A stretch of 64,000 nucleotides of DNA from Terriglobia bacterium (GTDB lineage Bacteria; Acidobacteriota; Terriglobia; 20CM-2-55-15). The DNA is taken from contig DASXLG010000133.1 in assembly GCA_036496425.1 (NCBI GenBank), positions 1 through 64,000 on the forward strand. The letters run 5' to 3'. Position 1 is the first letter of the stretch. Each line of letters begins with the position of its first letter. Made by a program: the position numbers and the translations under genes. Below, piece by piece: positions 11,354 through 55,351 of this stretch. The notes beneath the pieces are model-generated. The model worked only from the letters and a program-made list of their open reading frames with translations, was not told where the DNA came from and ran no database searches.

Positions 11354-12379
11354 GTGGAACTCAGCGTTGAACAAAAGAAAGAACTCGAAACAGTCGAGCG
11401 GTTTCATGCGGAACTGAAAAAGATCGACTTCGAAATCCGGAAAATTATCGTCGGCCAGAAAGAAGTCGTCGATCAGGTGATGATCTCGATGCTGACCGGC
11501 GGCCACTCGATCATCACCGGCGTCCCGGGCCTTGCCAAGACGCTGCTGATTGCGACTGTGGCCCAGGTGCTTCATCTGGATTTCAAGCGCATCCAGTTCA
11601 CTCCCGACCTGATGCCGGCCGATATCACGGGAACCGAAATCATTGAAGAGGACCGGGCCACGGGCAAACGGTCGCGGGTATTCGTCAAAGGACCGATCTT
11701 TGCGAACATCATTCTCGCCGACGAAATCAACCGCACGCCGCCCAAAACCCAATCCGCTCTGCTTGAGGCGATGCAGGAAGGATCGGTCTCGATCGAAGGC
11801 AATACCTACATCCTGGAAAAGCCGTTTTACGTGCTTGCGACCCAGAACCCGATCGAACTGGAAGGTACCTACCCGCTGCCTGAAGCTCAGCTCGACCGCT
11901 TCATGTTCAACATCGTCATTGGTTACCTTTCGGAGGATGAAGAAATTCAGGTCGTCAACCAGACCACCAGTCTCCGCCAGGTCGCATTCGAAAAAACCAT
12001 TGGCGGCCAGGAAATCCTCGAATTCCAGCGCCTTGTCCGGAAGATGCCCGTCGCCGAAGAAGTCATGCGCTACGCCGTACAACTCGCCCGCACCAGCAGG
12101 CCGAGCGGCGCGAATCCGCCGGATTTCGTGAAGCAATACGTCAATTACGGCGCCAGCCTCCGCGCCTCGCAGTTCCTGATTCTGGGCGCCAAAGCCAGGG
12201 CGCTTGTTCACGGACGCTACAACGTCGCCGTCGAAGACATCCAGACACTGGCGTATCCGGTGTTCCGCCATCGCATTCTGACGAACTTCCACGCCGAATC
12301 CGAAGGCATCAAGTCCGAAGACATCATCAAGCGCCTTCTGGAAGTCGTGCCGCTGCCGAAATCGGGGTTGAAGGACTAA
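11354..12379 (+). CDS. MoxR-family AAA+ ATPase
   Basis: 341 residues from GTG 11354, two bases after the previous stop. Walker A is GVPGLAKT, Walker B ILADEINR, with sensor 1 VLATQNPIELEGTYPLPEAQLDRF, all typical of MoxR chaperone-like ATPases. These cytosolic proteins act with DUF58 and vWA partners to mature or activate metal- or cofactor-containing complexes, or in envelope stress. The gene order MoxR-DUF58-BatA is conserved across many phyla, so assignment is firm though the client is unknown. Confidence 0.95.
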   Translation: MELSVEQKKELETVERFHAELKKIDFEIRKIIVGQKEVVDQVMISMLTGGHSIITGVPGLAKTLLIATVAQVLHLDFKRIQFTPDLMPADITGTEIIEEDRATGKRSRVFVKGPIFANIILADEINRTPPKTQSALLEAMQEGSVSIEGNTYILEKPFYVLATQNPIELEGTYPLPEAQLDRFMFNIVIGYLSEDEEIQVVNQTTSLRQVAFEKTIGGQEILEFQRLVRKMPVAEEVMRYAVQLARTSRPSGANPPDFVKQYVNYGASLRASQFLILGAKARALVHGRYNVAVEDIQTLAYPVFRHRILTNFHAESEGIKSEDIIKRLLEVVPLPKSGLKD

Positions 12380-12387
12380 GGGATTAA

Positions 12388-12474
12388 ATGAGCGGAGCGC
12401 GCGAAGCACAAGGCCGACAGGCCGCAGCCGGAAATAATGCAAGCGCGATAGCGCGCAGCCAGGAAATTAAATGA
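12388..12474 (+). repeat. Two mini-hairpins inside a 28-codon frame linking moxR and the DUF58 gene
   Basis: The 91-base gap between moxR and the DUF58 gene holds an ATG frame (MSGAREAQGRQAAAGNNASA...) whose TGA overlaps the next ATG (ATGA). Two hairpins are inside: GGCC-GACA-GGCC (12412-12423) and GCGC-GATA-GCGC (12443-12454), each followed by GCAGCC and GGAAAT. The same element occurs at the end of mog (23224-23265) and upstream of nuoH (54258-54300). Whether the peptide is made is unknown; its frame could carry ribosomes across the gap. Confidence 0.65.
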
Positions 12475-13385
12475 GTACGCCCGTTGCAGACAGAATGCCG
12501 GCAACCCGGTTCATCGATCCGAAGGTTCTGATCAAGATTCAGAACCTTGAACTGGTCGCCCGGACCGTGGTCGAGGGTTTTGTCCAAGGCTTGCACCGTT
12601 CCCCATACATGGGGTTCAGCGTGGACTTTGCCGCCTATCGCGAGTACATGCCGGGAGATGAGATCCGGCGCATCGACTGGAATGTTTATGCACGGTCGGA
12701 CCGCCTTTACGTCAAGCTGTTTGAAGGTGAGACGAACACCCGTGTTCTGGTCTTGTTGGACATCAGCGGTTCCATGAACTACGGATCCGGCGAGGTCAAG
12801 AAAATCGATTACGCCCGGATACTGGCCGCCTCGTTGACCTATTTCGCGCATCATCAACGCGATGGCGTGGGTCTGCTGACTTTCGATACCGAAGTCCGCG
12901 CGCATGTTCCGTCGAGCCGCCGGCGCGGACAGCTGCTGACCATCCTTTCGGAGATCGACAGGGTTCAGCCCAGCGAGCAAACCGAATTTCGCAAGCCGCT
13001 GCGGTTCCTGGCGGAATACCTGACCCGCCGCGGCGTCATCGTGCTGATCTCGGACCTCTATGACGAACCGGACAACATTATCGCCGGTCTCAAGGCGCTG
13101 AAGGCGAAGGGCAATGACATCATCGTCTTTCATATCATGGACAACTTCGAGCTGACGTTTCCGTTCGAGGACATGGCCCAGTTCGAGGACATGGAAACAC
13201 GCAAGAAGCTGCATGTCATTCCGGAATATCTGCGTACTCAGTATCTGGCCATTTTGAACGAGCACATGGAAAAGATCAGCAAGGCGCTGGCCGGTACGCG
13301 GATCGATTATTGCCTGATGGATACCAGCAAACCGCTGGATGCCGGGTTGTTCACCTACCTGGCGTCGAGGTCGAGGAGTACTTGA
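12471..13385 (+). CDS. DUF58-domain protein
   Basis: 304 residues. The DUF58 core is clear: YMPGDEIRRIDWNVYARSDRLYVKLFEGE, then a vWA-like site VLVLLDISGSMNYG (DxSGS) and VIVLISDLYDEPDNI. It has no signal peptide or obvious membrane helix and is probably cytosolic, partner of the MoxR ATPase encoded just upstream. Its ATG overlaps the stop of the small 28-codon frame, suggesting coupled translation. The next gene begins two bases after its stop. Confidence 0.93.
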   Translation: MSTPVADRMPATRFIDPKVLIKIQNLELVARTVVEGFVQGLHRSPYMGFSVDFAAYREYMPGDEIRRIDWNVYARSDRLYVKLFEGETNTRVLVLLDISGSMNYGSGEVKKIDYARILAASLTYFAHHQRDGVGLLTFDTEVRAHVPSSRRRGQLLTILSEIDRVQPSEQTEFRKPLRFLAEYLTRRGVIVLISDLYDEPDNIIAGLKALKAKGNDIIVFHIMDNFELTFPFEDMAQFEDMETRKKLHVIPEYLRTQYLAILNEHMEKISKALAGTRIDYCLMDTSKPLDAGLFTYLASRSRST

Positions 13386-22665: not shown

Positions 22666-22730
22666 CGCAGACGCGGCAATTGAAAGCCATTGATGCCGCA
22701 TCTGTGTCATCCGCGTCATCTGCGCCTCAC
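22642..22730. repeat. Inverted repeat, family C copy 1
   Basis: Arms of about 40 bases: GAGCCGCAGATGGCGCGGAT... on the left, and the right arm read in reverse GAGGCGCAGATGACGCGGAT.... It spans the moaC stop and ends seven bases before the mog ATG, leaving mog without a normal ribosome site. A second copy is at 62643. Confidence 0.85.
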
Positions 22731-22737
22731 CATCGCT

Positions 22738-23265
22738 ATGTTGGGTAGAGCTCTCGTCTTAACAATCAGCGACACTGCGTCTGCCGGCGGCCGGGAGGAC
22801 TTGTCAGGTCCCGAAGCAAAGCGCATCCTGGAAGAAACGGGGTTCGAGGTCGTAGCGGTCGAGATTCTGCCCGACGAGCGGCCGGCAATCGAATCGCGAT
22901 TGCGCCGGGCCAGCGAGGAAGGTTTGCGGCTGGTGGTAACCTCCGGCGGAACAGGGCTTTCGCCGCGCGACGTCACGCCCGAAGCCACAACGGCGGTAAT
23001 CGACAGGCCGGTACCGGGAATTGCGGAGCTGATGCGGCTGGAAAGTCTGAAAATCACGCCTCGGGCGGCGTTATCACGAGCTGTTTCGGGCATTTGCAAG
23101 TCGACGCTGATAATCAACTTGCCTGGAAGTGTCAAAGGCGTGCGAGAATGTTTGACGGCAGTGCGGCCGATCCTGTCGCACGCTGTCGAGGTTTTGAAGC
23201 AATCATCCCTAGGATGTGGGGACATGAGCGGAGCGAATGCAAGCCCGACAGGGCGCAGCGAGTAA
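22738..23265 (+). CDS. mog: Molybdopterin adenylyltransferase (MogA/MoaB type)
   Basis: Activates molybdopterin with AMP before MoeA inserts the metal. 175 residues from ATG 22738. The MoCF-type fold shows ALVLTISDTASAGGREDLSGPEAKRILEE, VVTSGGTGLSPRDVTPEAT and INLPGSVKGVRECLTAVRPILSHAVEVLK. No Shine-Dalgarno is seen because the family-C repeat sits directly upstream. The last 12-13 residues (MSGANASPTGRSE) come from a mini-hairpin element and are probably not part of the ancestral protein. Could equally be called moaB. Confidence 0.9.
   Translation: MLGRALVLTISDTASAGGREDLSGPEAKRILEETGFEVVAVEILPDERPAIESRLRRASEEGLRLVVTSGGTGLSPRDVTPEATTAVIDRPVPGIAELMRLESLKITPRAALSRAVSGICKSTLIINLPGSVKGVRECLTAVRPILSHAVEVLKQSSLGCGDMSGANASPTGRSE
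23224..23265 (+). repeat. Mini-hairpin element at the end of mog
   Basis: Begins ATGAGCGGAGCGAATGCAAG, contains the hairpin GCCC-GACA-GGGC (23243-23254) and GCAGC, and ends with the mog stop nine bases before nuoA. It matches the element at 12388 (same first 12 bases) and at 54258, with compensating changes in the stem. Confidence 0.7.
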
Positions 23266-23274
23266 TCAAAGCAT

Positions 23275-23637
23275 ATGGATAATCTGACATCTTACGTGCC
23301 GATCTTCCTGTTCATGGCGGTCGCGTTCCTGTTTCCGACCGCCACGTTGCTGGTCGCGAAGCTGATCCGGCCGAGCACCGGTGGAAAAGGAAAGTTGATG
23401 CCCTATGAATGCGGTGTCGATCCGGATTCCGATGCGCGCCAGCGGTACGCGATCCGGTACTACGTGGTGGCGATTCTGTTCGTGATTTTCGACGTCGAGA
23501 CCATATTTCTTTTCCCGTGGGCGATCATTTACAAGCAACTGGCGCTGTTCGGCCTGATTGAGATGATGGTCTTTCTAGGTATCCTCATCGTCGGATACAT
23601 CTGGATTATTAAGAAGGGCGCCCTCGACTGGGCGTAG
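23275..23637 (+). CDS. nuoA: NADH-quinone oxidoreductase subunit A
   Basis: 120-residue membrane subunit of respiratory complex I. Three membrane helices are visible (about 6-28, 64-84, 90-112), with the conserved loop GKLMPYECGVDPDSDARQRYAIRYY between helices 1 and 2, which lines the quinone site. Nine bases separate it from the mog element; nuoB follows 44 bases later across a small hairpin. Confidence 0.96.
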   Translation: MDNLTSYVPIFLFMAVAFLFPTATLLVAKLIRPSTGGKGKLMPYECGVDPDSDARQRYAIRYYVVAILFVIFDVETIFLFPWAIIYKQLALFGLIEMMVFLGILIVGYIWIIKKGALDWA

Positions 23638-53141: not shown

Positions 53142-54260
53142 ATGCCCACTAAAGACGAAACTCTATTTGATGCGAGTGAAATAACCGTCAGCATGGGGCC
53201 GCAACACCCGTCGACGCACGGCGTGCTGCAGGTGAAACTGAAGCTGGACGGCGAGCGGGTGATCGACGCCGAGTGCGTGATCGGCTACCTGCATCGCGGA
53301 GTCGAAAAGCTCGGTGAAGCGCAGACCTACGGGCAGTGGGTTCCGACGCTCGACCGCATGGACTACGTTGCGGCGGTGTCGAACTGTCTCGGTTACTGCG
53401 AAACGATCGAGAAACTTCTCGGTGTGACGGCGCCGCCGCGCGCGCAATACATCCGGATCATCATGACCGAGCTGAACCGGATCTCGAGCCACCTGCTCTG
53501 GCTTGGCACTCACGCGCTGGATATCGGCGCGATGACCGTGTTCCTGTATGCGTTCCGCGAGCGCGAAGAAATTCTCAAGATTTTCGAGAATTATTGCGGC
53601 GCCCGCCTGACCACGCACATGTTCCGGATCGGCGGTACGCAATACGAGATCTACGCAGGTTTCGAAGACCAGGTCCGCAAATTCGTGCGGGAGTTTCCGG
53701 CCCACGTCGATGAATACGAAACGCTTTTGACCGAGAACCGCATCTGGATCGGCCGTACCCGCGGCGTCGGTGTGATTTCGGCCAAGGAAGCGATTGATCT
53801 GGGCGTCACCGGTCCGCCGCTGCGCGGTTCGGGCGTGGAGTGGGATCTTCGAAAAGCAAAGCCATACTGCATTTATCCCGAATTTCAGTTCGATATTCCA
53901 ACCGGCACGACCGGAGATACCTACGACCGGTATATGGTGCGCATCGAGGAGATGCGGCAGTCCGCGCGGATCGTCGCGCAGGCGGTCGAGAAGATTCCAG
54001 ATGGACCGATCATGGCCAAGGTATCCAAGATCATCAAACCACCGGTGGGGGATATTTATCATTCGATCGAGGCGCCGAAAGGGGAACTCGGTTACTACAT
54101 CGTCAGCGACGGGAGCACGCAGCCGTATCGCGCGCGGGTGCGGCCGCCATCATTTGTGAACCTGCAGGCCTTAAAGAAGATGGTCGCCGGTCTCATGGTG
54201 GCCGACGTCGTGGCGATTATCGGAACGCTCGACATCGTCCTGGGCGAAATCGACCGGTAG
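53142..54260 (+). CDS. nuoD: NADH-quinone oxidoreductase subunit D
   Basis: 372 residues. Peripheral 49-kDa subunit that forms the quinone pocket with NuoB. The quinone-site His is in [43 protein letters not shown] and [19 protein letters not shown] follow, and the C terminus ends VLGEIDR as usual. Probable substrate of the MidA methyltransferase encoded near nuoB. A mini-hairpin element separates it from nuoH. Confidence 0.97.
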
Positions 54261-54300
54261 CGAAGCGTGAGCGCGATAGCGCGAAACAGGAACTAGAGCG
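54258..54300 (+). repeat. Mini-hairpin element between nuoD and nuoH
   Basis: Just after the nuoD stop: AGCGAAGCGTGAGC, hairpin GCGC-GATA-GCGC (54271-54282), then GAAACAGGAACTAGAG. Same form as the elements at 12388 and 23224. Confidence 0.65.
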
Positions 54301-54310
54301 CATTTTATAT

Positions 54311-55351
54311 ATGGACTTTGCAATCGATTACATTCTGATACCGCTCATCAAGATCGCCCTCATTCTGGCGATCGTCCCCGGATATGTCGCCGTCATTACG
54401 CTCGCGGAACGGAAAGTCATTGCCTGGATGCAGGTCCGGCTCGGTCCGATGCGCGTCGGTCCCTGGGGAATTCTTCAGATGGTGGCGGATCCACTCAAAC
54501 TGCTGATCAAAGAAGACATCGTTCCCGATCAGGCGGACCGCTGGATTTTCACGCTGGCTCCCGTCATCTGTCTGATTCCGGCATTCATCGTACTGGCCGT
54601 GATTCCGATCGGTCCGCCGATACATATTCTAGGCCGGACGGTCACGATGTATCTCACGGACATCAACATCGGCGTCCTTTATGTAATGTCGATTTCGTCG
54701 GTGGGGGTGCTGGGAATCATTCTCGGCGGCTGGGCCTCCAACAGCAAATATCCGTTGCTCGGAGCGCTTCGCTCTGCCGCCCAGATGGTGAGCTACGAAG
54801 TCGCGCTCGGCTTCTCGATCATCGGCGTTTTGATGCTCTCCGGCAGTTTGAGCCTGGTCAGCATCGTCGAAGCGCAGAAGAATACCGGCTACTGGTATGT
54901 CTTTCTTCAGCCGATAGGATTCATCCTTTTCTTCATCTGCGGAGTGGCGGAAACCAACCGGGCGCCCTTCGATCTGCCGGAAGCCGAATCGGAGCTGGTG
55001 GCGGGCTTCCATACGGAATACAGCGGTTTCCGATTCTCCCTGTTCTTCCTTGCAGAGTATGCCAACATGCTTACAGTGGCAGCTATGGCCGTCACCCTGT
55101 TCTGGGGCGGCTGGTTGCGGCCGTTCCCGAACGTCGCGGCGCTCTCATTCCTGGATCTGATTCCCGGAGTTCTCTGGTTCATCGCCAAAGTTGTCGTCTT
55201 CCTCTACTGCTACCTATGGTTCCGGGCGAGCTGGCCGCGTTATCGGTACGATCAGCTGATGAAGCTGGGCTGGCAATATCTCCTGCCGCTTTCGATGGCA
55301 AACGTCGTCGTGACCGCTGTGGTCGTTCTGGTTTTAGGCGGGAAAGGATAA
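54311..55351 (+). CDS. nuoH: NADH-quinone oxidoreductase subunit H
   Basis: 346 residues from ATG 54311. Eight or so membrane helices. Landmarks: YVAVITLAERKVIAWMQVRLGPMRVGPWGILQMVADPLKLLIKED, the quinone-channel loop, and CGVAETNRAPFDLPEAESELVAGFHTEYSGF. Connects the peripheral arm to the proton-pumping arm. Confidence 0.97.
   Translation: MDFAIDYILIPLIKIALILAIVPGYVAVITLAERKVIAWMQVRLGPMRVGPWGILQMVADPLKLLIKEDIVPDQADRWIFTLAPVICLIPAFIVLAVIPIGPPIHILGRTVTMYLTDINIGVLYVMSISSVGVLGIILGGWASNSKYPLLGALRSAAQMVSYEVALGFSIIGVLMLSGSLSLVSIVEAQKNTGYWYVFLQPIGFILFFICGVAETNRAPFDLPEAESELVAGFHTEYSGFRFSLFFLAEYANMLTVAAMAVTLFWGGWLRPFPNVAALSFLDLIPGVLWFIAKVVVFLYCYLWFRASWPRYRYDQLMKLGWQYLLPLSMANVVVTAVVVLVLGGKG

Follow-up and report, generated by a model that had tools for sequence, protein, structure and literature searches.

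A very short mobile palindromic element at operon junctions and inside genes of uncultured soil Acidobacteria

Results and Discussion

Hairpins at three gene junctions

We analyzed a window of 64,000 nucleotides from a Terriglobia bacterium (positions 1 to 64,000 of contig DASXLG010000133.1, assembly GCA_036496425.1). All of the features that we describe in the window are on the forward strand. A MoxR-type AAA ATPase (11354..12379; Pfam AAA_3, E 1.9e-60) and a DUF58 protein (12471..13385; Pfam DUF58, E 2.6e-50) are encoded next to each other, and between them lies a composite element with two hairpins (12388..12461). Further downstream, a mogA-like molybdopterin gene (22690..23265; Pfam MoCF_biosynth, E 6.9e-30), whose 3' end is lengthened by another copy (23224..23259), precedes nuoA (23275..23637; Pfam Oxidored_q4, E 1.5e-36). 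The last copy (54259..54292) sits between nuoD (53142..54260, with its stop at 54258-54260; Pfam Complex1_49kDa, E 1.1e-106) and nuoH (54311..55351; Pfam NADHdh, E 6.5e-128), whose ATG is at 54311.

The original prediction described four hairpins of the form NNNN-GAYA-NNNN, and on re-reading we located all of them: GGCC-GACA-GGCC at 12412, GCGC-GATA-GCGC at 12443, GCCC-GACA-GGGC at 23243, and GCGC-GATA-GCGC at 54271. The sequence said to be shared by two of the copies, ATGAGCGGAGCG, occurs exactly in the window at both 12388 and 23224. Copies that begin with it belong to a longer subtype, which we will call ATG-type.

The composite contains two copies of the core of the element: core copy 1 (12400..12433; stem GGCC/GGCC, loop GACA) scores 43.6 bits with our covariance model (E 9e-8), and core copy 2 (12436..12464; stem GCGC/GCGC, loop GATA) scores 31.7 bits (E 3.5e-5). 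The composite has repeat matches of up to 74 nt in the related genomes G001, G002, G004, G005, and G006. It can be read as part of a 28-codon mini-ORF (12388..12474; MSGAREAQGRQAAAGNNASAIARSQEIK, translated from the DNA), whose TGA overlaps the ATG of the DUF58 gene (ATGA). The same pattern is seen at C133:73.8k and at other loci. The copy at 23224 is ATG-type (stem GCCC/GGGC, loop GACA; model match 23231-23264, 32.1 bits). It forms an in-frame 13-codon C-terminal extension of mogA, followed by GAG TAA, with the stop at 23263-23265; the mogA genes of relatives terminate without such an element. The copy at 54259 is a core copy of the GTGA/GAAAC variant (stem GCGC/GCGC, loop GATA; 38.2 bits), and it has 28-nt exact matches that are repeated in G006 and G009.

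A 34-nt core with a covarying stem

The bare form NNNN-GAYA-NNNN occurs 9 times in the window, versus 3.6 times expected under a first-order Markov model. An excess of only ~2.5-fold is compatible with chance hairpins and GC-rich coding bias, and within-window counts of the bare stem-loop alone are weak and uninformative as evidence for an element. But when up to 3 mismatches are allowed, the extended motif GAAGCGCAAGCGCGAYAGCGCGCAGCC is found 79 times in the 6.16-Mb genome, and the reversed control not once. The covariance model, whose training copies included the four window hairpins (the genome-wide copies are independent), has exactly four matches in the window (31.7-43.6 bits, E <= 3.5e-5), and the next match scores just 10.2 bits. 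Given the ratio of 79 to 0 and the gap in model scores, chance hairpins are refuted as the explanation.

The covariance search on which the original prediction was to stand or fall found at least 141 copies in the source genome (G000), so an excess of copies is present; the stem covaries as well. In an alignment of 232 copies, from the source genome and named relatives, 34 nt form a conserved core, CGCGAAGCGCAAGCGCGAYAGCGCGCAGCCTCAA, whose termini are CGCGAAG... and ...CCTCAA. The net insertion is 36-37 nt for the core; its ATG-type relative, ATGAGCGGAGCGAATGCAAGCCCGAYAGGGCGCAGCCATCAA, has a length of 42-46 nt. We saw no terminal inverted repeats in the element.

Across 65 distinct copies, 95.8% of the cells of the 4-bp stem are paired, and both bases are changed in 33 cells (12.6 +/- 1.8 in shuffles). 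Thus, the stems do vary while staying paired, as had been noticed in the window. The double changes are confined to two of the four pairs, and they mostly affect the third pair, which switches between G-C and C-G (GCGC to GCCC/GGGC). Less common stem variants are GGCC, GTGC/GCAC, and GGGC/GCCC. Outside of the conserved stem there is a weak outer extension of 2+2 bp.

The covarying stem is one argument for a selected cis-acting RNA element, which would couple or tune downstream translation and be kept at particular operons. However, covariation can persist among mobile copies, so compensatory stems are not automatic proof of a regulatory RNA. The Rfam covariance models, which count against this reading, gave no match in the window at the gathering threshold and none at E <= 1 in 12300-12560, and we rejected a known Rfam regulatory RNA family as the identity of the hairpins. 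We found no description of the repeat in the literature that we searched, whose coverage is incomplete.

Distribution of the element

Because at most ~150 candidates were scored per genome, the copy numbers from the covariance model are lower bounds. Five congeners of the source organism contain 41 to at least 156 copies each. A second genus of the family has at least 82 and at least 79 copies in two genomes, and in a third genus the element is rare (at least 4 copies). We found no copies in another, sister genus of the same family, and none in 30 genomes from other families of the class. As far as we searched, the element is confined to one family of uncultured soil Acidobacteria.

Among the matches listed by a pattern scan, the hosts are the Acidobacteria "gp5" MAGs AA63, AA64, AA66, and AA68, along with the MAG 13_1_20CM_2_55_15. 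Two bins, labelled gp18 and Deltaproteobacteria, have a single match each among those listed (L126 and L149); these may be misbinned contigs. The element is absent from viral contigs by exact match.

Empty and filled sites

At all three window junctions, the element is absent from every congener whose junction could be read: G001 to G005 for nuoD-nuoH and for MoxR-DUF58, and G001, G002, G004, and G005 for mogA-nuoA. Other members of the family likewise lack the element at these junctions, and for MoxR-DUF58 in particular it is missing from G001, G002, G003, G004, G005, G006, and G008. The native nuoD-nuoH junction in G002, G003, G004, and G006 is a stop-start overlap, TAATGG. In G001, an unrelated stretch of 72 nt lies between nuoD and nuoH. 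In G009, which belongs to a different genus, the MoxR-DUF58 junction (L308) contains a different, related-looking sequence, ATGAGCAGCTGCGAATGCA..., which is possibly an independent insertion.

Filled sites with empty counterparts were also found elsewhere. AA68 and 13_1_20CM_2_55_15, which are ~84% identical, provide three clean pairs, two at L067 and one at L086; we left out L098, L231, and L128, which align poorly, and L239_14707, which is inside a rearranged stretch. The filled sites at L067 are two arrays, one of them a few bases 5' of the ATG in a pair of genes that overlap by ATGA, and the filled site at L086 is a cassette directly after the ATG. Between sdhA and sdhB there is an insertion of 45 nt in G005 only, which leaves both the stop of sdhA and the native ATG of sdhB in place. 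These lineage-specific insertions support the view that the element is mobile.

At uracil-DNA glycosylase genes (L116, L037, and L135), one in-frame copy is common to three species. At least one insertion is therefore old and has been retained.

The same comparisons speak against the cis-acting RNA proposed above. A regulator that couples the genes of these operons should be conserved at orthologous junctions, and in the relatives these junctions are empty. Given this, a copy number that varies so widely between congeners, and the lack of copies in the sister genus, the part of the original prediction that made the element a selected regulator of the window operons is unsupported.

Landing in palindromes and tandem arrays

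Copies often lie inside other palindromes. Of 290 distinct copies, 40 are between the arms of another palindrome, and ~7 would be expected if the flanks were re-paired randomly. The palindrome used most is ACTGTAGCGGCGGTC/GACCGCCGCTACAGT, and some copies are nested in the loop of a second copy of the element. As a separate observation, ACTGTAGCGGCGGTC...GACCGCCGCTACAGT is itself a second palindromic repeat that is common in the same genomes (L033, L040, L056, L137, and others). At two loci (C174:13755 and C13:29859 of G000; L039/L098), the element seems to interrupt a third repeat, TTTTGTGCC...TTTGTGGCTAA.

Tandem arrays, which inflate some of our counts, have periods of 36, 45, and 46 nt, and their spacers are locus-specific. 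A scan for target-site duplications, which together with terminal inverted repeats mark a MITE, gave no consistent signal, only signals that were driven by composites. Several start-codon sites have ATGA on both sides, but this could belong to the element itself.

As an alternative to a transposase, replication slippage or template switching at hairpins might spread the element, with loops extended by copying another hairpin. Loop-in-loop nesting, the repetition of locus-specific spacers within arrays, and the lack of both a consistent target duplication and a linked enzyme would all fit. It would be harder to account in this way for copies that are dispersed, at start codons and within genes unrelated to one another, and we consider slippage without a transposase rather doubtful.

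We also considered a REP/RAYT-type system, in which REP-like hairpins are moved by a Y1 (HUH) transposase. Short palindromes, tandem arrays, and landing in palindromes are expected of such a system, an interspersed short hairpin at high copy number is present in G000, and Y1 transposases are encoded by G000 and several relatives. However, none of the nine Y1 transposase loci that we examined has a copy of the element nearby, and the consensus does not contain the GTAG tag. Furthermore, we found no Y1 match in G001 (an 88% complete MAG) or in G003 (81% complete, with at least 150 copies). We think that a REP/RAYT system is unlikely. One of the Y1 transposases (L221, C15:13160-13498 of G000) stands alone between long inverted repeats of its own (GGGGGCGCACACCTGAATTC); it resembles the TIR-flanked transposases that were reported for Acidobacteria (PMC3733652).

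Orientation and insertions inside proteins

In 772 kb of the source genome, with genes and starts called by a simple home-made caller, gaps between co-directional genes contain 28 sense copies and 1 antisense copy. The other copies are in divergent (9) or convergent (4) gaps, within genes in sense (11) or antisense (4) orientation, or at a contig edge (1). Counted by locus, the bias in co-directional gaps is 22 to 1 (p = 6e-6). A larger mixed sample has a weaker bias in the same direction (87 to 29). So, the original prediction was right that copies are concentrated between co-transcribed genes, but the copy at 23224 is inside the mogA ORF and others are within genes.

We found in-frame copies in a DUF1592/PSD protein (two), in an ankyrin protein (a tandem pair), and in a Vgb-lyase/metallo-beta-lactamase protein. 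In comparisons that are mostly to paralogs at 42-49% identity, the gap versus the homologs is exactly 12 residues for the Vgb-lyase protein, for most of the DUF1592 comparisons, and for one antisense case. In the uracil-DNA glycosylase, the copy is in the N-terminal part of the protein, at a position that alignments with solved structures do not cover.

In the EAQARQ frame, loops of the form GNTA give a TAG codon. Such loops are found in 139 of 187 intergenic copies and in 0 of 12 in-gene copies (p = 2e-7, which is optimistic because orthologous or tandem copies make up several of the 12). The lack of TAG-creating loops indicates that in-gene copies were filtered by translation. In the ATG-type copies, we did not see an excess of variation at third codon positions, so selection on the encoded peptide is without support.

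ATG-type copies at start codons

In 49 of 99 ATG-type copies (counting tandem neighbors), the next ATG is 9 or 10 nt past ...CAGC. We examined 36 clusters, which were fetched by similarity to the ATG-type copy in the window and are not a random sample; 25 of these have a clear downstream start. Of the 25, 11 are in-frame fusions and 8 have a mini-ORF that stops at the next start or no more than 12 nt from it, for a combined 19 of 25. The mini-ORF at 12388-12474 and these eight clusters bear out the earlier reading of copies as short frames terminating at the next start. The fusions add an N-terminus of the form MSGANASPxGRSHQ-x-M; examples are MSGANASPIGRSHQE-MTPVTF... (SdhB-like) and MSGANVSPTGRNDQI-MMIFKKAIPRRTF... 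(DUF1552-like, from our reading of the N-terminus). In nine clusters, a long upstream frame stops at the TGA contained in the leading ATGA.

In different genomes, ATG-type copies are repeatedly found inserted at DUF1552-like genes whose N-terminus is MxxFKKAIPRRTF (L063, L334, L345, L348, and L352). These genes are apparently downstream of DUF1592 genes.

We tentatively suggest that start codons are the target of the ATG-type unit, which would act as a mobile cassette. Inserting in sense orientation at the ATG, often at the ATGA overlap of coupled genes, it would leave the upstream stop intact and the ribosome-binding spacing native, and it would give the new N-terminus MSGANASPxGRSHQ to many unrelated proteins. 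The position of these copies may reflect either targeting or survival bias. We know of no bacterial repeat that has been described as specific for start codons.

Strong co-orientation, placement in co-directional gaps, and mini-ORFs that terminate at the next start are also what a cis-acting RNA that tunes translation might produce. Copies within protein genes do not fit that role. Together with the empty junctions, the variable copy number, and the lack of an Rfam match, they make it very unlikely that the element is such an RNA.

A mobile palindrome, probably filtered by translation

The explanation that we favor, and consider very probable, is that the hairpins belong to a family of mobile palindromes that are very short and non-autonomous, and whose copies are the survivors of filtering by translation; a conserved regulatory role in the window operons is not needed. 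Because copies have spread not only between co-transcribed genes but also to start codons and, in frame, into proteins, we conclude that the element is hitch-hiking DNA and not a conserved regulator of these operons.

As the empty and filled sites and the nesting show, copies insert as DNA, and they often do so beside a start codon or in the loop of a palindrome that is already there. They would most likely be mobilized in trans by a putative hairpin-specific or single-strand-specific activity, or they might spread by template switching. Translation would then act as a filter. Selection would retain insertions that are in frame, free of stops, and co-oriented, or that keep both the upstream stop and the downstream start. 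The biases in length, TAG avoidance, co-orientation, and mini-ORF ends that we observed are consistent with such a filter. At start codons, the leading ATGA of the ATG-type unit keeps the upstream stop, and the unit either joins the next gene as an in-frame fusion or ends as a mini-ORF at the start of that gene. Ribosomes could relay translation across these mini-ORFs.

A repeat of 34-46 nt has repeatedly rewritten proteins in frame and re-engineered gene junctions, including those of the complex I and succinate dehydrogenase operons. Since closely related species have filled and empty sites, the movement of short elements and the tolerance of coupled operons for insertions become testable. 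Our results are also a warning that short hairpins at operon junctions, even with compensatory changes in their stems, are not automatically regulatory RNAs.

Comparison with known systems

REP and other GTAG palindromes are, like the element, short interspersed hairpins (20-40 nt) with compensated stem variation, tandem clusters, and some intragenic copies (PMC3733652, PMC8266576). The element differs in having neither the GTAG tag nor a linked Y1 transposase, and in being strongly co-oriented. Also, it is found upstream of starts, whereas REPs are mainly downstream of genes (PMC3733652, PMC8266576). Insertion sequences that target REP palindromes likewise land in palindromes, but each of them is a complete insertion sequence that has a transposase (PMC1525189), and this short unit encodes none.

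The YPAL/RU-2 elements of Yersinia are similar in inserting beside or across dyad symmetry, in their mobility as seen from empty and filled sites, and in having co-translated copies (PMC2229807). But they are 168 bp and differ in sequence. They make variable target duplications of 3-26 bp (PMC2229807); for our element, the scan for duplications gave no consistent signal.

The Rickettsia palindromic elements (RPEs) are also palindromic, genus-level repeats, with many copies in frame in conserved protein genes and no known transposase (PMC2229807, PMC10969869, PMC3733652). RPEs have a length of 105-150 bp and a terminal CGTC (PMC2229807, PMC10969869, PMC3733652), whereas our unit is 34-46 nt and its consensus lacks CGTC; its stem is 4 bp instead of 8-9 bp. 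Because we looked for the GTAG and CGTC tags and for a long stem and found none of these, we do not assign the element to either superfamily. Unlike RPEs, it favors co-directional gaps and start codons. As with RPEs, it is inserted in frame in conserved proteins, both as 12-residue insertions and as N-terminal cassettes, and we view it as a free-living soil counterpart to the Rickettsia palindromic elements.
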